From: Agarivorans sp. TSD2052
GTDB lineage: Bacteria; Pseudomonadota; Gammaproteobacteria; Enterobacterales; Celerinatantimonadaceae
Assembly: GCF_023238625.1 (NCBI RefSeq)
Contig: NZ_CP096670.1
Location: 3,390,501 to 3,454,500 of the forward strand
DNA: 64,000 bases
Reading direction: 5' to 3'
In this document: positions 6,425 to 55,701 of the stretch, piece by piece
Layout of the letters: each line of letters opens with the position of its first letter
How positions within the stretch are numbered: the stretch's first letter is position 1
Notes under the pieces: generated by a model
Told to the model about the DNA's origin: nothing
The model's input: the letters and a program-made list of their open reading frames with translations, nothing else
The model's database searches: none
Position numbers and translations under genes: made by a program

Positions 6425-7219
6425 ATGTTATCAGTGTTATTTCTATGTACTGCCAATGCTGCTCGCTCCCAGTTAGCCGAGGCTTTGGTAAACCAACGCT
6501 ATGCGCAGCATTTTGTGGCTTATAGTGCCGGTACTCAGCCAAAAGGCATAGATCCAAGAACCCTGCGACTTTTAGAAACACATGGCTTATCAATTGATGG
6601 CTTAAGCAGTAAAACCATCCACCAGCTTGATCTTCAGTTACAACAACAGCATGGCCAACCGGCGCGATTTGATTTTATTATCACCCTATGTGATAGCGCT
6701 AAACAAGAATGCACCTTGCTGCCTAATGGTGCCGCTATTTTACATTGGAACTTAAGTGATCCAGCAGCCGAACCCGGCACCGCTTTATTTGAGCAAGTAT
6801 TTAGCGAGCTTGAATTACGCTTAGCCGAGTTTGTCCGCTTTAATCACAACCCCACAGCCGCATTACAATTACCCCCTATCGAGGTTTTTAAGCAATTTAG
6901 CGACAATACGCGCTTGCAGATTTTAATGTTAATTGAAGATGAGCTGCGGCTTTGTGTTAATCAGCTGTGTTTTGCCTTACAAGAAAGCCAGCCAAAGATA
7001 TCGCGCCATTTAGCGCTATTACGCGAATGCCAACTGTTGTCTACCACTCGCCAAGGCCAGCAGGTGTTTTATCATTTAAATCCACTGTTGCCAGAATGGG
7101 TGGCTCAAACGCTGTCTACCACACGTATGGCCAACCCCAGTTATATCAATCAGCCTTTATCGCGTATCCGCGAATGGGCTAGCCCAGAATTACTCACCCG
7201 TTTAATTAATCAAGATTAA
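6425..7219 (+). CDS. arsR: arsenate reductase-ArsR repressor fusion
   Basis: A 264-residue fusion. Residues 1-135 are a low-molecular-weight phosphatase/ArsC fold with the P-loop C8-TANAA-R14-S, a general-acid SDP (D112) and the pair C89/C96 with the same spacing as Cys82 and Cys89 of thioredoxin-linked ArsC. All three redox cysteines for arsenate reduction are therefore present. Residues 150-235 are an ArsR/SmtB winged helix with recognition segment SQPKISRHLALLRE. C177 and C182 (LCVNQLC) are candidate arsenite ligands in the place of the classic ELCVCDL motif. The ATG start is fixed by the P-loop strand (MLSVLFLC). Similar fusions are known in proteobacteria, though the role of the phosphatase half is less clear. 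It heads a tight operon; 9 bases separate it from the next gene. Confidence 0.9.
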   Translation: MLSVLFLCTANAARSQLAEALVNQRYAQHFVAYSAGTQPKGIDPRTLRLLETHGLSIDGLSSKTIHQLDLQLQQQHGQPARFDFIITLCDSAKQECTLLPNGAAILHWNLSDPAAEPGTALFEQVFSELELRLAEFVRFNHNPTAALQLPPIEVFKQFSDNTRLQILMLIEDELRLCVNQLCFALQESQPKISRHLALLRECQLLSTTRQGQQVFYHLNPLLPEWVAQTLSTTRMANPSYINQPLSRIREWASPELLTRLINQD

Positions 7220-7228
7220 GGTAACACT

Positions 7229-7723
7229 ATGTCTTCACATCCTATTTTTGCCGTTGATGTTAGCGACAACGCTCAATTGCTTTTAACCCCCTGCCCGGGT
7301 ACTAAAGGTGTTGATTTATCTACGTCTTTACAGCAGCTATGTTACAAAAACAGCCCTGCCCTTCTAACCATGATGACCAAGCAAGAAATGGCCGATAACC
7401 AAGTGAGCGACCTGCCTAAACACGCGGTGACTTACGATATGCAGTGGTTCCACTTAGCCCTAGAAGACGACACCGTGCCAGACCAAGCCTGGGAAGATTA
7501 CTTTTTGATTGTATTACCCCGCTTTGTACAGCTCATTAACAGCGGTGTAAGTTTGTCGCTGCATTGTAAAGGCGGCAGCGGCCGAACCGGGATGGTGGCA
7601 GCACGTATCATGCTTGCTTTGGGCTTTGAATTAGACGACGCCATCAGCAAGATTAAGGCGGTACGCCCTAACGCATTCACTGTGCCCGCACAGCTTGAAT
7701 ATATTCAGAAATTTGCCAAATAA
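7229..7723 (+). CDS. dual-specificity/tyrosine phosphatase-like protein in ars operon
   Basis: A 164-residue cytoplasmic protein with a cysteine-phosphatase active site HC113-KGGSG-R119-TG, of the cyclin-dependent-kinase-inhibitor-3/dual-specificity type. A candidate general-acid Asp lies in the [10 protein letters not shown] segment (about residues 77-85). This fold is distinct from the low-molecular-weight domain fused to ArsR upstream. It sits between that gene and the GAPDH gene with gaps of 9 and 14 bases, so it is co-transcribed with the arsenic genes. Substrate unknown. A role on phospho- or arseno-intermediates is inference from position only. A ribosome site (AAGG) precedes the ATG. 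Confidence 0.8.
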
Positions 7724-7737
7724 GAGTAACCGTTAAC

Positions 7738-8748
7738 ATGACAATTAAAGTAGGAATTAACGGCTTTGGCCGCATTGGTCGCTTAGCGCTACGTGCCGCT
7801 TACGATTGGCCAGAGTTAGAGTTTGTCACCATCAATGATGTCGCCGGTAACGCCGAAACGTTAGGGCACTTGCTAGAGTTTGATTCGGTGCAAGGCCGCT
7901 GGAATCATAGCGTTGAACACAATGCAGAAGGCATTGTGATTAACAATAAAACCATTAAGTGCTTTCAAGAAAAAGATTTAAACAACGTAGATTGGTCGGG
8001 CTGCGACGTCGTGCTGGAATCTACCGGCGTGCATCGTTCAAAAGCATTATTAGCCCCTTACTTAGCCCAAGGTGTGAAACGGGTGGTGGTATCAGCGCCA
8101 GTAAAAGAAGACGGCGTAGCTAACATTGTCGTGGGTGTGAACGACGATATTTTTGAGCCAAACTTGCATCAAATTGTTACTGCCGCGTCGTGTACCACCA
8201 ACTGCTTAGCCCCTGTCATTAAGGTCATTCAACAGCATTTAGGCATAGAGTCTGGGTGTATGACCACTATTCATGACCTAACCAATACCCAAACCATACT
8301 AGATGCGCCGCATAAAGACTTACGCCGTGCCCGCGCCTGTGGCATGTCGTTAATACCTACCACTACCGGCAGCGCTAAAGCGATATGCGATATCTTTCCT
8401 GAGCTAGACGGCAAGCTAAATGGTCATGCAGTGCGCGTGCCGTTGGCCAATGCGTCACTCACCGATATGGTGTTTACCCTTGAACGTGACACCACGGTAG
8501 AAGAAGTAAACAGCTTGTTTAAACAAGCCAGTGAAGGTGAGCTTAAAGGCATTTTAGGTTATGAAGAAAAGCCCCTAGTATCGATTGATTACAAAGGCGA
8601 CCAACGCTCTAGTATCGTAGATGCAAAATCAACCATGATGGTCGGCAAACGTATGCTTAAAATCTACGCTTGGTACGACAACGAAATGGGTTACGCCACC
8701 CGTACCAGTGAGCTGATCCGTACCGTTGGTTTGGCAGATAAAGGCTAG
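7738..8748 (+). CDS. gap: ArsJ-associated glyceraldehyde-3-phosphate dehydrogenase
   Basis: A 336-residue GAPDH with the N-terminal NAD-binding [15 protein letters not shown] motif, the catalytic S151-C152-TTNCLAP and [10 protein letters not shown] where most GAPDHs have TTVHAYT. The C-terminal signature [11 protein letters not shown] is intact. In arsenic islands, a GAPDH beside arsJ forms 1-arseno-3-phosphoglycerate from glyceraldehyde 3-phosphate and arsenate, and ArsJ exports it. The gene lies 14 bases after the phosphatase and 7 before arsJ, which supports that specialised role rather than general glycolysis. Whether the cell has another glycolytic GAPDH cannot be seen here. Confidence 0.92.
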
Positions 8749-8755
8749 ATAACTC

Positions 8756-9970
8756 ATGATTAAGACGCTACCCCAACAGCTCAAGCAGTATTTGCTAGTA
8801 ACCTTTAATTATTGGAACTTCACCATTACCGATGGCGCACTGCGCATGCTGGTTGTGTTGTACTTCTACCAGTTAGGTTATTCGGCCATTGCGATTGCTA
8901 TGCTGTTTTTGTTTTACGAGTTATTCGGGGTAGTGACTAATCTGATTGGTGGTTGGTTAGGGGCGCGGATTGGCCTAAACCACACCATGAATATCGGCTT
9001 GGCGATGCAAATTATTGCCCTGCTGGCATTGGGACTGCCCTCTGAGTATTTGTCGATCCCTCTAGTGATGGCCGCTCAGGCGCTCTCAGGTATTGCCAAA
9101 GATCTTAATAAAATGAGTGCCAAAAGCTCGATTAAAGGCTTAGTAAAACAAGACCAACAGCACAGCTTGTATAAGTGGGTGGCGATACTCACGGGCTCAA
9201 AAAACGCATTAAAAGGCTTTGGTTTTTTCTTAGGTGGCGCACTGCTTAATTCCATAGGTTTTCAATATTCGATGCTGGCTATGGCGGCTGTGTTATTTAT
9301 CGTGTTGATGCTGAGTTTACAGCTACTAGCAAAAGATCTTGGCAAAGCTAAAAGCAAACCCACGTTCTCTCAGTTGTTTTCTAAAAGCCGGCAAATCAAC
9401 ATACTGGCTGCAGCACGATTATTTTTATTTGCCGCCCGCGATGTATGGTTTGTAGTAGCACTGCCGGTATATTTATCAGCTAGCCTAGATTGGTCACACA
9501 TTCAAACAGGTAGCTTTATGGCCATTTGGGTAATCGCCTATGGAGTGGTTCAGGGTTTTGCACCACGCATCACCGGCAGTAAGACAGGCAAGGTGCCGGG
9601 GCGAAACTCTGCGCTTAGTTGGGCAGTATTACTCAGTGTTGTGACCGGTGTTTTAGCGTATTTAGTGCAACTTGCTTGGCAACCACAAACCACCATTATT
9701 GTAGGCTTGTTAGTGTTTGGTGTGGTCTTTGCGGTGAACTCCTCGTTACACTCTTATTTAGTGGTGAGTTATGCCAGTGATGATGGCGTTTCAATGGATG
9801 TGGGCTTTTATTACATGGCCAATGCCATGGGGCGTTTACTTGGAACCCTGTTATCAGGCGTGGTATTTCAAATGGCCGGCATAGCGGCGTGTTTATGGGT
9901 AAGCTTTACTCTATTAGCCATCACGAGTTTGATTAGTATCGGTTTGCCCAAACGAGCCCCAAAAACCTAG
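8756..9970 (+). CDS. arsJ: organoarsenical efflux MFS transporter ArsJ
   Basis: A 404-residue, about 12-TM major facilitator protein. The N-terminal YWNFTITDGALRMLVVLYFY and the following FYELFGVVTNLIGGWLGARIG are characteristic of ArsJ. Known ArsJ exports 1-arseno-3-phosphoglycerate made by the partner GAPDH, giving arsenate resistance without prior reduction. It is the last gene of the operon. The 18-bp palindrome at 9986-10003 follows its stop codon. Confidence 0.93.
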   Translation: MIKTLPQQLKQYLLVTFNYWNFTITDGALRMLVVLYFYQLGYSAIAIAMLFLFYELFGVVTNLIGGWLGARIGLNHTMNIGLAMQIIALLALGLPSEYLSIPLVMAAQALSGIAKDLNKMSAKSSIKGLVKQDQQHSLYKWVAILTGSKNALKGFGFFLGGALLNSIGFQYSMLAMAAVLFIVLMLSLQLLAKDLGKAKSKPTFSQLFSKSRQINILAAARLFLFAARDVWFVVALPVYLSASLDWSHIQTGSFMAIWVIAYGVVQGFAPRITGSKTGKVPGRNSALSWAVLLSVVTGVLAYLVQLAWQPQTTIIVGLLVFGVVFAVNSSLHSYLVVSYASDDGVSMDVGFYYMANAMGRLLGTLLSGVVFQMAGIAACLWVSFTLLAITSLISIGLPKRAPKT

Positions 9971-38517: not shown

Positions 38518-39738
38518 ATGGCTGGAATTCTTACAATGATCCTCGCGGGTGGAGAAGGCACACGCCTTTATCCGCTAACAGATAGCCGCACTAAACCCGC
38601 GGTTCCTTTTGGGGGGAGCTATCGGCTTATCGACTTCGCCTTAAATAACTTTGTTAACTCTGATTTTTTAAAGATTTATGTTCTCACTCAGTTTAAATCG
38701 CAATCACTAAATATCCATTTACGCCAAGCTTGGCACTTATCAGGCATTACTGACCGCTTTATTGACGCGGTTCCCGCTCAAATGCGAGTGGGTAAACGCT
38801 GGTACGACGGAACCGCTGATGCCATTTACCAAAATGCGCGATTTATTGAGATAAATGAGCCTGATCACGTTTGTATTTTTGGTAGCGACCACATCTACAA
38901 GATGGACGTTCGTCAAATGGTAGATGAACATCGCCGTAAAGAAGCAGACCTAACTGTAGCCGCCATTAAGGTGCCTAAAGAGCAAGCCGACCAATTTGGT
39001 ATCATCGAAGTCGACGTAGAGGGGAGAATGATTGGTTTTGAAGAAAAACCTAAAGTAAACCCTAAAACCATTCCTGGCGACCCTGACCATGTACTGGCCT
39101 CTATGGGCAACTACGTATTTGAACGTAAAGTCTTATTAGAATCACTCTACGATGATGCTAAAGAAGACAATTCTACGCATGATTTTGGCCACGACATCAT
39201 TCCAAAGCTCTACCCTAAGGGTAATGTATTCGCTTACGACTTTACTCAAAACGACATACCAGGTGAGACAACTAGCGGCTATTGGCGTGATGTAGGTACC
39301 TTAGATGCCTATTGGGCGGCTCACATGGACTTATTAGATGAAGAGCCACCATTTTCGCTATACAACCCTAAATTTCCACTGCACACCCATTACCCTCCAT
39401 TGCCACCAGCAACCTTTAAGGATGTAGGAGACAAAAAAGTAAGTATCAGCCAATCTCTGATATCTGCGGGTAGTTTTGTTTTAGGTTCAGAGGTTAACCG
39501 CAGTGTACTTGGTTTCAGAAGCCACGTTCGCCCGGGCTCGGTCATTAGCGAGTCGGTGTTAATTGCTAATTGTAGAATTGGCGAAGGCTGTCAGATTCGT
39601 CGAACAATCATCGACAAAAATGCTGAAATTGCCCCCGGAACCATTATAGGAGAAAATTTAGAAGAAGATCGCAAACGTTTTACGGTATCTCCAGAAGGAA
39701 TTGTAGTGATACCGAAAAACGCTAAAGTTGGCTTTTAA
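38518..39738 (+). CDS. glgC: glucose-1-phosphate adenylyltransferase GlgC
   Basis: A 406-residue ADP-glucose pyrophosphorylase. The nucleotidyltransferase domain has MILAGGEGTRLYPLTDSRTK, then PAVPFGGSYRLIDF, AQMRVGKRWYDGTADAIYQN and the glucose-phosphate loop GFEEKP. A C-terminal left-handed beta helix follows from about residue 290. It makes ADP-glucose, the committed glycogen precursor. glgA follows after 92 bases in the same direction. Branching enzyme and phosphorylase genes are not in this window. Confidence 0.95.
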   Translation: MAGILTMILAGGEGTRLYPLTDSRTKPAVPFGGSYRLIDFALNNFVNSDFLKIYVLTQFKSQSLNIHLRQAWHLSGITDRFIDAVPAQMRVGKRWYDGTADAIYQNARFIEINEPDHVCIFGSDHIYKMDVRQMVDEHRRKEADLTVAAIKVPKEQADQFGIIEVDVEGRMIGFEEKPKVNPKTIPGDPDHVLASMGNYVFERKVLLESLYDDAKEDNSTHDFGHDIIPKLYPKGNVFAYDFTQNDIPGETTSGYWRDVGTLDAYWAAHMDLLDEEPPFSLYNPKFPLHTHYPPLPPATFKDVGDKKVSISQSLISAGSFVLGSEVNRSVLGFRSHVRPGSVISESVLIANCRIGEGCQIRRTIIDKNAEIAPGTIIGENLEEDRKRFTVSPEGIVVIPKNAKVGF

Positions 39739-39791
39739 TTGACCAAGTCACCTTGTAAATAGACAAGCAATTACTCTAATATGAACTTATT

Positions 39792-39812
39792 TAAGGCACC
39801 CTAGGTGCCTTA
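39792..39812 (+). other. hairpin between glgC and glgA
   Basis: A perfect 9-bp stem (TAAGGCACC/GGTGCCTTA) with 3-base loop sits just before the AAGGAG ribosome site of glgA. Without a T-run it looks like a processing or stability element, or a weak partial terminator, within the glgCA transcript. Confidence 0.45.
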
Positions 39813-39830
39813 ATAGTTAAGGAGCTCTCT

Positions 39831-41303
39831 GTGACAGCCAATCCTGTCAGGATATTATTTATAGCCTCTGAAGTTGAAAGCCTTGCTAAAACAGGCGGTT
39901 TAGCTGACGTGGCTAAATCTTTACCTCTTGCCCTAAAGGAACATGGACAAGACGTAAGAATTATCATGCCTTTCTATAAAACCTTAAAGCGCCATGATGA
40001 AGCTGAAAAACTCTTCGACTTACGTTTACACACTAATCATGATGACATCGAATATTCTGTTTATCGTTTAATGCTTGAAGATGTCCCCGTTTATCTTATC
40101 CAGCAACATGCTTATTTCGAACGGGATCAATTATATAGCGAAGGCGAGTTTGCCTATGATGATAATGGCGAACGTTTCTCTTTTTTCTCTAGGGCGGTTT
40201 TTCAAGTCGCTGAAGCACTAGACTTTAAGCCTGATATTTTTCATTGTAACGACTGGCACACTGCTTTAATCCCTTATCTTCTCAAGCAAAAGTATGCCCA
40301 TCACCCGTTCTTTTGTAATAGTAAATCGGTATTAACTATCCACAATGCCGCATTCCAAGGCATCTTTGAAAAACACCAGTTTCACCTTCTTGAAGGTTTA
40401 GCTGATGGCCTAGTTGACCAAATATTGGATGGCTATAATTGCTTAAACTTACTGAAAGCAGGGATCCGTTACGCCGACAAAATCAATGCTGTTAGCCCTA
40501 ACTATGCACAAGAGCTACTCACTCGCTTAGGCTCTCACGGTTTATGTGACTATTTCGAACAGCGAAGAGCAGACCTAGTCGGCATTTTGAACGGCTGTGA
40601 TTATTCTGATTGGGATCCCGCTACTGATCACTTATTACCCACCAATTATTCAAGCAGCGATCTCAGCGGCAAAGCGGTCTGTCGTCATACTTTGCAGGTG
40701 AAAACTAATCTTGCTCAGATTGATGTGCCGATATTTGGGATGGTATGCCGTTTAACGGAACAGAAAGGGTTCTACTTATTGCTACCAGCGCTACAACAGT
40801 TTTTACGTCATAATGTACAAGTTGTGATTGTTGGGACCGGTGATAGTGGCATTGTGGGCGAACTAGAAGCGCTGGAAAAACAATGGCCTGATAAGCTTCG
40901 CTTTATTCACGCTTACAGTAATGAACTAGCCCATTTAGTTGAAGCAGGGGCAGACTTCTTCCTGATGCCTTCTCTATTTGAACCTTGCGGCTTAAACCAA
41001 ATGTATAGTTTGGCTTATGCGACCTTACCTATTGTTCGCGGAGTGGGTGGTTTAAAAGATACGGTTGTCGATTATGATGAAGATCCAAGCCAAGCAACCG
41101 GACATATTTTCTATGATCCAGAGCCAGCAGATCTACTCAATATCTTACGCCGAGCATTGTTGCTATATCTAGAGCACCCCGAAGAATTTCAAGCAATGCG
41201 CCACCGCGCAATGAAGTCTCGCTTCCATTGGCAAGAGTCTGTTTGGCAATACGAGGCGCTGTATAATGAAGCGCTAAATGTGAGTCCGGTTCAACAACCA
41301 TAA
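39831..41303 (+). CDS. glgA: glycogen synthase GlgA
   Basis: A 490-residue GT5 glycosyltransferase. ADP-glucose-binding KTGGLADVAKSLP is near the N terminus, with HCNDWHTALIPYLLK and VLTIHNAAFQGIF in the first Rossmann domain. GMVCRLTEQKGFYLL and MPSLFEPCGLNQMYSLAYAT lie in the second. It extends alpha-1,4-glucan from ADP-glucose supplied by GlgC. The start is GTG, 8 bases after AAGGAG. A hairpin follows the stop. Confidence 0.95.
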   Translation: MTANPVRILFIASEVESLAKTGGLADVAKSLPLALKEHGQDVRIIMPFYKTLKRHDEAEKLFDLRLHTNHDDIEYSVYRLMLEDVPVYLIQQHAYFERDQLYSEGEFAYDDNGERFSFFSRAVFQVAEALDFKPDIFHCNDWHTALIPYLLKQKYAHHPFFCNSKSVLTIHNAAFQGIFEKHQFHLLEGLADGLVDQILDGYNCLNLLKAGIRYADKINAVSPNYAQELLTRLGSHGLCDYFEQRRADLVGILNGCDYSDWDPATDHLLPTNYSSSDLSGKAVCRHTLQVKTNLAQIDVPIFGMVCRLTEQKGFYLLLPALQQFLRHNVQVVIVGTGDSGIVGELEALEKQWPDKLRFIHAYSNELAHLVEAGADFFLMPSLFEPCGLNQMYSLAYATLPIVRGVGGLKDTVVDYDEDPSQATGHIFYDPEPADLLNILRRALLLYLEHPEEFQAMRHRAMKSRFHWQESVWQYEALYNEALNVSPVQQP

Positions 41304-53998: not shown

Positions 53999-54224
53999 TA
54001 CTTATTCCTCAATCGGTTTAATCTAAGCGAATCATCAGTCATCGTAACCCATAATTAAAAGAGATGAAAAATTGTACAATTTTTATCCGAAATGATTCAG
54101 AGATCGGAGCTGTGTCAATTTTTCTTTAAAATTTAACACTGTATTGGTGATCTACTTGCTACTTCTTTACTGTTTTTTTAGTTATTATGCTTTCATGCAG
54201 CTTAAACAAGTTAATGGAGTAATT

Positions 54225-55598
54225 GTGCAAAGAGCATCCATATTTATTTTACTTTTCTGGTGTATCAGTACAGTTGCCACTGCGGCTAACGTTACCGTGC
54301 ACTACAAAAGTACAGCAAACAACTACGATGGTTGGGGCCTACACATTTGGGCTGGCGAAGAAATGGTTAACGGAAAAGAAGTCGGCGCTCGTACCGATTT
54401 CCGTTTAAGAAAGGGCACTACGCCCGATACACCATTAATGCCTAGCAAATTTGATGACTTTGGTGTGGCATTTACCATCCCAGTAAGAAACGACGCTAAG
54501 CAATTTTCTTACACGCTTACCAATGGTGCTTCACACCATATGGGTGTTGAAGAGTGGAAGTGGATTAAAAGTAAACATGGCTTAAACATTTGGATTGTGG
54601 AGAAAGACCCTAAGATCTACACGTCTTTGCCCGCTAAATATAGCAATACGGCAAGCACAACCAAAAAAGCAACAACCACAACAAAAGCTAGCGCGGTATT
54701 GCCGCCGCCAGTGCCAAAAGCGCCAAAAGCGGCTACCACCGCAACGGTTGCTGCAACTAAAACTGTCGCGAAGCCTAAGCCTAAGCCTAAGCCAAAAGCG
54801 GTAGCTAAAAGCACGACTAGCCCAGAGATGAAGCGAACTTTAGCCGTTCTCAAAGACGACTTAAACAAGAAGAATCGAACCATTAGTAAACTTCAATCTG
54901 CGTTAAATGATACGCAGAAAATCAACCAGCGTTTACAGAATGACTTAAATAGTAAACTGATTGATTACCAAGCTTTACTACAACTAAATGATAAAGTTAG
55001 TAATGAAAATAGAACGCTAACAGCAACCAACCAGAGCTTATACAGCCAGGTGGAGCAAGCTGGTAGCAGTAATGCGGAACAAAAACTGATTGAACGCAAT
55101 CAGCAATTAGAGACGCAGTTAGCAGGCCTTAATGAGCAAATGCTCGGTCTACAAAAAACCATTACTGAAAACAATGTCGATGTTGGGCAACAGAAACAGC
55201 TGCAAGAACAATTCAGCCAGTTACAAACTCAACGCGACGAACTGCGTGAGCAAAACAATAAGTTGAGTGCGCATATTGTTGAGTTAGTACAACGAGCTGA
55301 AAGCAGCGGTCAACCTCAGCAGTCAGGAATTGCTTGGTGGTTATTTGGTGCCGTAGTCGCTGTGCTAGTGGTATTGATTGGTTTGGTCTTCGTAGCAACA
55401 AGCAAGCGCTATAAAGATTTACAGTTTGATATGGAAGATGCCATCAAGCGTAAAGAAGAAGAAATTAAAACTGAGAAGATTTACGCTGCAGCCGCGAATG
55501 AAAAACTACGCAAAGTTCTTCATGGCGAAGCACAACAGCGCAGTTGGGCCCCCCTACCCGACGGCTTACCCGAAAATCTAAAGAAAGATACTGCATAA
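54225..55598 (+). CDS. CBM41-like domain, coiled coil and C-terminal membrane helix
   Basis: A 457-residue exported protein. Signal peptide residues 1-20 (MQRASIFILLFWCISTVATA). Residues 22-135 resemble a CBM41/pullulanase-associated alpha-glucan-binding domain: VTVHYKSTANNYDGWGLHIW, then WKWIKSKHGLNIWIVEKDP. A Thr/Ala linker and a (KP)n stretch are at about 140-200, a long Gln/Asn/Leu coiled coil at 205-365, one TM at about 370-392 (WWLFGAVVAVLVVLIGLVFV) and a charged cytoplasmic coil to the end. The GTG start at 54225 has GGAG five bases upstream and gives a clean signal peptide. No catalytic domain is present. It may tether or sense alpha-glucans at the cell surface; that is inference. Confidence 0.82.
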   Translation: MQRASIFILLFWCISTVATAANVTVHYKSTANNYDGWGLHIWAGEEMVNGKEVGARTDFRLRKGTTPDTPLMPSKFDDFGVAFTIPVRNDAKQFSYTLTNGASHHMGVEEWKWIKSKHGLNIWIVEKDPKIYTSLPAKYSNTASTTKKATTTTKASAVLPPPVPKAPKAATTATVAATKTVAKPKPKPKPKAVAKSTTSPEMKRTLAVLKDDLNKKNRTISKLQSALNDTQKINQRLQNDLNSKLIDYQALLQLNDKVSNENRTLTATNQSLYSQVEQAGSSNAEQKLIERNQQLETQLAGLNEQMLGLQKTITENNVDVGQQKQLQEQFSQLQTQRDELREQNNKLSAHIVELVQRAESSGQPQQSGIAWWLFGAVVAVLVVLIGLVFVATSKRYKDLQFDMEDAIKRKEEEIKTEKIYAAAANEKLRKVLHGEAQQRSWAPLPDGLPENLKKDTA

Positions 55599-55701
55599 CA
55601 ATCAAGGCCAGCTAAGCTGGCCTTTTTTCTGCCTAGCTGTAAACGATTTAATGTGTTAATTAACTGTCCATGCCATGTAACGCCGTTTAGCCGAGGAAGC
55701 T

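Follow-up and report, generated by a model that had tools for sequence, protein, structure and literature searches.

The window analysed here is a stretch of 64,000 nucleotides from Agarivorans sp. TSD2052. It encodes a 457-residue protein in which a CBM41 carbohydrate-binding domain (the PUD family of Pfam) is followed by a spacer, a long coiled coil and a single C-terminal transmembrane helix. Tentatively, we read this protein as a receptor, whose coil and transmembrane helix would relay the presence of a periplasmic glycan to a partner of its cytoplasmic tail. The features of the gene and its product are listed below, by window position.

54216..54219, + strand: GGAG ribosome-binding-like site, 5 nt ahead of the GTG, present in 7/7 Agarivorans genomes compared
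54225..55598, + strand: PUD/CBM41-coil-TM protein of 457 aa with GTG start; the open reading frame is exact, 457 codons plus stop
54225..54287, + strand: predicted signal peptide, residues 1-21 (hydrophobic windows lie in residues 3-25, and the sequence shows an AxA motif)
54291..54623, + strand: PUD/CBM41 domain, residues 23-133 (PF03714 match; fold match to 2j71)
54636..54821, + strand: Thr/Lys/Ala/Pro-rich spacer, residues 138-199 (composition; pLDDT <50 at 143-198; lowest conservation)
54822..55304, + strand: coiled-coil stalk, residues 200-360 (predicted helices; heptad-like periodicity)
55329..55403, + strand: transmembrane helix, residues 369-393 (hydropathy up to 3.1; helix in the model)
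55407..55595, + strand: predicted cytoplasmic tail, residues 395-457, 63 residues (conservation among 7 orthologs)
55604..55624, + strand: terminator-like hairpin with a T run after it, 3' of the stop codon (9 base pairs, of which 6 are G-C)

The gene probably starts at the GTG, because the GGAG site precedes it in all seven genomes and because an upstream ATG is out of frame by one base in another Agarivorans genome (G005). The first 21 codons (54225-54287) have a pS of 0.26, compared with 0.52-0.76 elsewhere in the gene, and this low synonymous divergence is possibly a constraint from translation start. A scan for sigma-70 promoters between 53990 and 55720 found none, against 3.1 expected, while the terminator scan of the region gave five sites against 2.4 expected.

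The original prediction described a coiled coil and a single membrane helix without an enzyme, and this description holds. In the Pfam search of the protein, PUD was the only family over the cut-off, with no enzyme, GGDEF, EAL or SH3 domain, and no family above cut-off was found for the tail. The spacer contains 14 Thr, 13 Lys, 13 Ala and 9 Pro in its 62 residues. The coil is modelled as three helices (200-278, 282-315 and 320-360), and its hydrophobic residues recur with a period of 3.5 (p = 0.004 against shuffled sequences, seven periods having been tried). If it were one straight helix it would be about 24 nm long, which is about the width of a periplasm. There is one C-terminal hydropathy peak (residues 373-391), and the predicted helix runs without a break across the transmembrane segment and into the tail (371-432). 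Only one Lys or Arg is present in the 20 residues before the helix (350-369), compared with six in the 20 after it (394-413), and the C-terminus is therefore predicted to be cytoplasmic. The combination of signal peptide and C-terminal membrane anchor places the CBM41 domain, by prediction, in the periplasm and not on the cell surface. With a pLDDT of 63.7 and a pTM of 0.30, the model of the whole protein is poor, and is too weak to be used for coil packing or dimerisation.

The assignment of the N-terminal domain is much firmer. It matches PF03714 with an E value of 2.4e-14 and 54.4 bits (cut-off 25), over positions 2-97 of a profile of 97, and the same profile found a match in only one of 14 control genomes, that of Thermotoga maritima. 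A PDB search with the full-length single protein gave no match, and a search with sequence profiles gave the CBM41 structures 2j44, 2j43, 2ya1, 2j71 and 2wan. When the PUD was modelled alone, from an alignment of 49 rows, the pLDDT was 87.4. Foldseek returned 15 matches at E <= 0.001, all of them pullulanase or SpuA-type CBM41 entries. In VIA-align the best match was 2j71 (Z 14.2, rmsd 2.4, 97 residues aligned); the top 11 rows were CBM41-bearing entries, followed by CBM25/26 at Z 9.7 and the CBM41 entry 6az5 at 9.6. The best 50 rows contained no fold other than starch-binding ones, which leaves room for families not listed there. The CBM41 call of the original prediction is therefore borne out by both sequence profile and model: assignment to another fold would have spoken against it, and it is CBM41 structures that match first. 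The CBM20 domain of mammalian STBD1 was also in the VIA-align list (Z 7.3), a match that, on the modelled structure, appears to reflect only the common starch-binding fold.

The putative binding site is less typical. The ligand residues of the Thermotoga CBM41, which we take to be W27, W29, K76 and D81, correspond to positions 23, 25, 72 and 77 of the 2j71 chain, and their spacing agrees with the chain sequence. We aligned 242 unique PUD rows, which include multiple PUDs per protein, fragments, Agarivorans proteins and two typed rows; the counts at the four positions are 172 for His, 213 for Trp, 193 for Lys and 198 for Asp. The window protein has H40, W42, His and Glu. The same four residues are found in its six orthologs (two with identical PUDs, counted once), and a second alignment, in which the last two positions are Lys in 42/49 and Asp in 44/49, again gives His and Glu for the window protein. 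A paralog in the same genome has His, Trp, Phe and Glu. The usual His, Trp, Lys and Asp are present in three GGDEF-EAL proteins and in five lipoprotein-like PUDs, all described below. W37, H40 and W42 are conserved in 7/7 orthologs and in the paralog, and the tryptophans corresponding to W20 and W25 in the chain of 2j71 are retained. Judged from these residues, the aromatic stacking platform appears intact and the polar contacts altered. Binding of an α-glucan by the PUD is plausible, and its affinity or specificity may differ from that of a usual CBM41. Compared with the modules of T. maritima PulA (2j71) and the streptococcal enzymes (2j44, 2j43), the window protein thus shares fold and family, but it has no glycoside hydrolase, it is membrane anchored, and His/Glu replace Lys/Asp.

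The altered residues also suit a different explanation, in which the CBM41 fold has been adapted to a new ligand (some other glycan, material linked to peptidoglycan, or a protein) and the protein serves, like YgiM, as a scaffold in the envelope. The exchange of Lys and Asp for His and Glu in every ortholog would fit this, as would a Thr-Asn-Gly in the window protein where His-Lys/Arg-Gly is commoner. YgiM (TIGR04211, SH3_and_anchor) has a similar layout of signal peptide, N-terminal domain, coil and C-terminal transmembrane helix, and its profile matches the coil and transmembrane helix of the window protein with an E value of 9.5e-10, a match repeated in the orthologs. However, YgiM has an SH3 domain at the N-terminus where the window protein has PUD, and the score of 38.4 bits is under the cut-off of 65. 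The profile matches many genomes below its cut-off: it had matches at E <= 0.001 in 11 of 14 controls, of which two were over the cut-off. Comparison with the Agarivorans YgiM by hhalign aligned just 27 columns of the coil (probability 58.6), and a true YgiM is encoded separately in 7/7 Agarivorans genomes. Membership of YgiM/TIGR04211 was rejected on the score, the missing SH3 domain and the confinement of the hhalign match to the coil. W37 and W42 are also kept. We consider a changed ligand with a scaffold role somewhat less likely than the receptor reading, but not far behind it.

Indirect support for the receptor reading comes from elsewhere in the order. In three genomes of another family (f20; genomes G030, G118 and G131) a single open reading frame combines PUD, coil, one transmembrane helix, GGDEF and EAL, and Pfam finds PUD, GGDEF and EAL in all three proteins.

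L049:5534-7954, + strand: PUD-coil-TM-GGDEF-EAL protein, 806 aa, genome G030
L053:5878-8160, + strand: PUD-coil-TM-GGDEF-EAL protein
L048:5171-7423, + strand: PUD-coil-TM-GGDEF-EAL protein

The fusion was found in 3/7 genomes of f20, and the other PUD reading frames listed there are longer than 1,200 aa. Named records show the same loci in MAG RGIG665 and in a Corallincola sp. MAG, both of them from assemblies that belong to a single genus and are incomplete (88% and 60%), and the frame in G131 is interrupted by a contig end. By eye, the GGDEF and EAL motifs are kept at L049, and the EAL motif at L053 is ETM. Like the window protein, the fusions have a PUD, a spacer or coil, a single transmembrane helix and a cytoplasmic helix. 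They differ in carrying GGDEF and EAL and in having the usual Lys/Asp (3/3), where the Agarivorans protein has a private tail of 63 residues. Judged by their domains, the PUD-coil-TM front in these three genomes forms the outer part of a c-di-GMP enzyme, and the window protein resembles a front of this kind that ends in its own tail instead of an enzyme. At the level of sequence, homology between window protein and fusions is secure for the PUD only; coils align with anything, and the coil and transmembrane helix share layout alone. On the opposite strand at all three fusion loci there is a long gene that by eye is α-2-macroglobulin-like; at L049 this gene had no NCBIfam model match at 1e-20.

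The PUD itself is widespread, being present in 110/394 genomes of the order sample and in 23/398 of the phylum sample, and a scan of genome contigs gave at least 80 PUD loci, mostly in actinomycete records. Most PUD reading frames among the matches listed exceed 1,000 aa, and from their length we read these as pullulanases. Every Agarivorans genome (7/7) has at least one longer PUD reading frame, the one tested in the window genome being a pullulanase, and in G027, where PUD reading frames of 781 and 841 aa are listed, the shorter one is pullulanase-like by eye. The statement that pullulanases are the normal carriers of CBM41 modules fits the long reading frames that make up the bulk of the matches listed, but enzyme-free PUDs do exist elsewhere. 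In one genus (family f11, genus g14) at least seven short reading frames are listed, and the five that were read (L149, L150, L151, L152 and L154) are 149-160 aa long and begin like lipoproteins; the PUD at L154 adjoins a gene for a GH77 4-α-glucanotransferase and that at L149 a GH18 gene. A further example is secreted.

L198:1315-1845, + strand: secreted 177-aa PUD protein, genome G967, with PUD as its only Pfam domain

It lies downstream of sugar ABC-transporter permeases and has an amylase nearby (all by eye).

In the genomes searched, the full architecture of the window protein was found in one genus only. It is present in 7/7 Agarivorans genomes and 0/5 other genomes of the family. Among the 394 genomes of the order sample, 14 had any match and seven a full-length match, all seven being Agarivorans; a search with the full alignment in the class sample gave 1/369, the window's own genome. 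The six orthologs outside the window genome are 81-86% identical to the window protein. Mean pairwise identity among the seven orthologs is 95.3% for the tail, 90.9% for the PUD, 88.9% for the coil, 88.2% each for the transmembrane helix and the signal peptide, and 64.5% for the spacer. The pooled Nei-Gojobori estimate of dN/dS is 0.031 in the tail, compared with 0.037 in the PUD; synonymous sites in the coil are saturated, and no value is given there. These low ratios, together with the intact gene in all seven genomes, indicate that the gene is not a product of chance. They also contradict the idea of a misread frame, or of a functionless remnant decaying from what was once a PUD-GGDEF-EAL gene or a pullulanase gene. 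Restriction to a single genus is what such a remnant might show, but with purifying selection on both PUD and tail we consider it highly improbable.

We asked whether the tail is the best-conserved part of the protein. Variable columns number 9/63 in the tail, 21/116 in the PUD, 40/166 in the coil, 8/29 in the transmembrane helix and 46/62 in the spacer, and the tail does not separate from the PUD (Fisher p = 0.68), the coil (0.15) or the transmembrane helix (0.15), so this suggestion is not supported. Constraint on the tail, as estimated from the alignment, is nevertheless strong and about equal to that on the PUD. A search with the tail found it in 7/394 genomes of the order, all Agarivorans and no other genus, and its core is 48% identical over 48 residues in the paralog. 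Such conservation is as expected for a docking surface, and would not be explained by anchoring alone.

The receptor we propose would be a single-pass inner-membrane protein, in which the flexible spacer and the long coil hold the CBM41 domain in the periplasm. There the domain would bind an α-1,4-glucan, for example maltodextrin that enters this compartment, or some related glycan. The bound ligand would alter the coil, which is probably a dimer, and the change would be relayed through the transmembrane helix to the conserved cytoplasmic tail, which would act on a separate cytoplasmic protein. The fold, the layout, the topology signals, the conservation of the tail and the similar fronts fused to GGDEF-EAL are computed results; we infer that the protein binds a glycan, dimerises and signals, and that it has a partner. 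We favour the receptor because a CBM41 fold is present without an enzyme, because similar fronts are fused to GGDEF-EAL in three genomes, because the private tail is constrained, because W37, H40 and W42 are kept, and because each Agarivorans genome has at least one separate, longer PUD reading frame. Several observations count against it. The protein has no output domain and no linked partner gene, and the gene is closed by a terminator-like hairpin. The usual Lys/Asp of CBM41 is His/Glu here and Phe/Glu in the paralog. The difference in identity between tail and PUD is not significant, homology to the fusions covers the PUD only, and the full-length model is poor. The original prediction of a surface receptor or sensor thus gains indirect support from the fusions as regards sensing, while the surface location gives way to a predicted periplasmic one.

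Nearly as likely as a receptor is a passive tether or scaffold, in which the CBM41 domain would hold an α-glucan or an enzyme-glucan complex near the inner membrane, in the way STBD1 is proposed to tether glycogen through its CBM20. This would aid uptake or breakdown on the spot and involve no signalling, and the tail would serve only to anchor or localise. A plain anchor architecture with no output domain is what this would require, and the stand-alone PUDs are in keeping with it, one beside a GH77 gene (L154) and one beside permease-like genes (L198). The presence of STBD1 among the structural matches points the same way, within the limits of a common starch-binding fold. On the other hand, a mere anchor would not need a tail constrained as much as the PUD, and inspection by eye of the genes flanking the window gene and its ortholog in G001 revealed neither a transport gene nor an amylase gene.

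Two known systems resemble the window protein in layout. RsgI anti-sigma factors of Clostridium thermocellum have a polysaccharide-binding module outside, one transmembrane helix and a short cytoplasmic part; the likeness is one of layout only, and RsgI differs in its reverse domain order, its other CBM families and its known sigma-I partner. Mammalian STBD1 is a proposed glycogen receptor or tether with a CBM20 module. It too joins a starch-binding module to a membrane anchor and has no enzyme, but it is eukaryotic and its module is CBM20. In principle the window protein perhaps works like RsgI or STBD1, but it belongs to neither.

The original prediction also suggested a link to glycogen, for which we found no specific support. 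Upstream of the gene the window contains a pair of glycogen genes, and no further ones were recognised by eye within it.

38518-41303, + strand: glgC and glgA pair

The distance from this pair is 12.9 kb here, about 12.7 kb in G001 and about 8.7 kb in G003. Its proximity was considered as evidence and rejected, because the whole stretch is syntenic in G001 and G003 and also holds unrelated genes, such as a dapA-like gene. From gene order, the nearness of glgC/glgA reflects synteny and not a glycogen operon, and the hairpin closes the gene. The immediate neighbours are a divergent aldo-keto reductase upstream and a HAD hydrolase downstream, beyond which are bacterioferritin-like genes (by eye); the order of the neighbours is identical in G001 and G003. 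In G003 the aldo-keto reductase beside the ortholog is found as two overlapping frames (L051:9956-10998, + strand), and may be frame-shifted or mis-sequenced. The nearest HAD homolog in four of the five other genomes of the family is 42-48% identical and has different neighbours within 1.5 kb; the fifth gave no HAD homolog match.

The paralog is encoded elsewhere in the window genome, and a search of the six other Agarivorans genomes did not find it.

L046:10403-11776, - strand: paralog of the window protein, 40% identical

It is flanked by a gene for a GH16 enzyme and by a GGDEF-EAL gene, the latter within about 390 bp. This neighbour was rejected as evidence for a partner, because the GGDEF-EAL gene is present in 7/7 Agarivorans genomes and the paralog in 1/7 (two of the loci in genomes without the paralog were read).

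As far as our literature search shows, the CBM41 module belongs to a known family and the membrane-anchored, enzyme-free architecture is undescribed: no description of a CBM41-coil-TM protein was found, in a search whose coverage leaves out most subscription journals. In the passages that mention both CBM41 and GGDEF, the two terms are unrelated. If the protein is a receptor, a starch-binding module that elsewhere assists an enzyme would here have become a sensor. A broader proposal, more doubtful than either the receptor or the tether, is that CBM41 was recruited from pullulanases as the head of transmembrane receptors, fused to c-di-GMP enzymes in some gammaproteobacteria and free-standing in Agarivorans, with a private tail and a partner in trans. 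A receptor would open a possible route by which starch-like sugars, through c-di-GMP, influence how marine polysaccharide degraders attach or move, and the GGDEF-EAL fusions make the idea of α-glucan acting on c-di-GMP directly testable.

Elsewhere in the window, at 6425-9970 on the + strand, there is an arsenate-type operon. One of its ORFs has an ArsR-type domain and another looks by eye like a phosphatase; the others encode an ArsJ-associated GAPDH and ArsJ.
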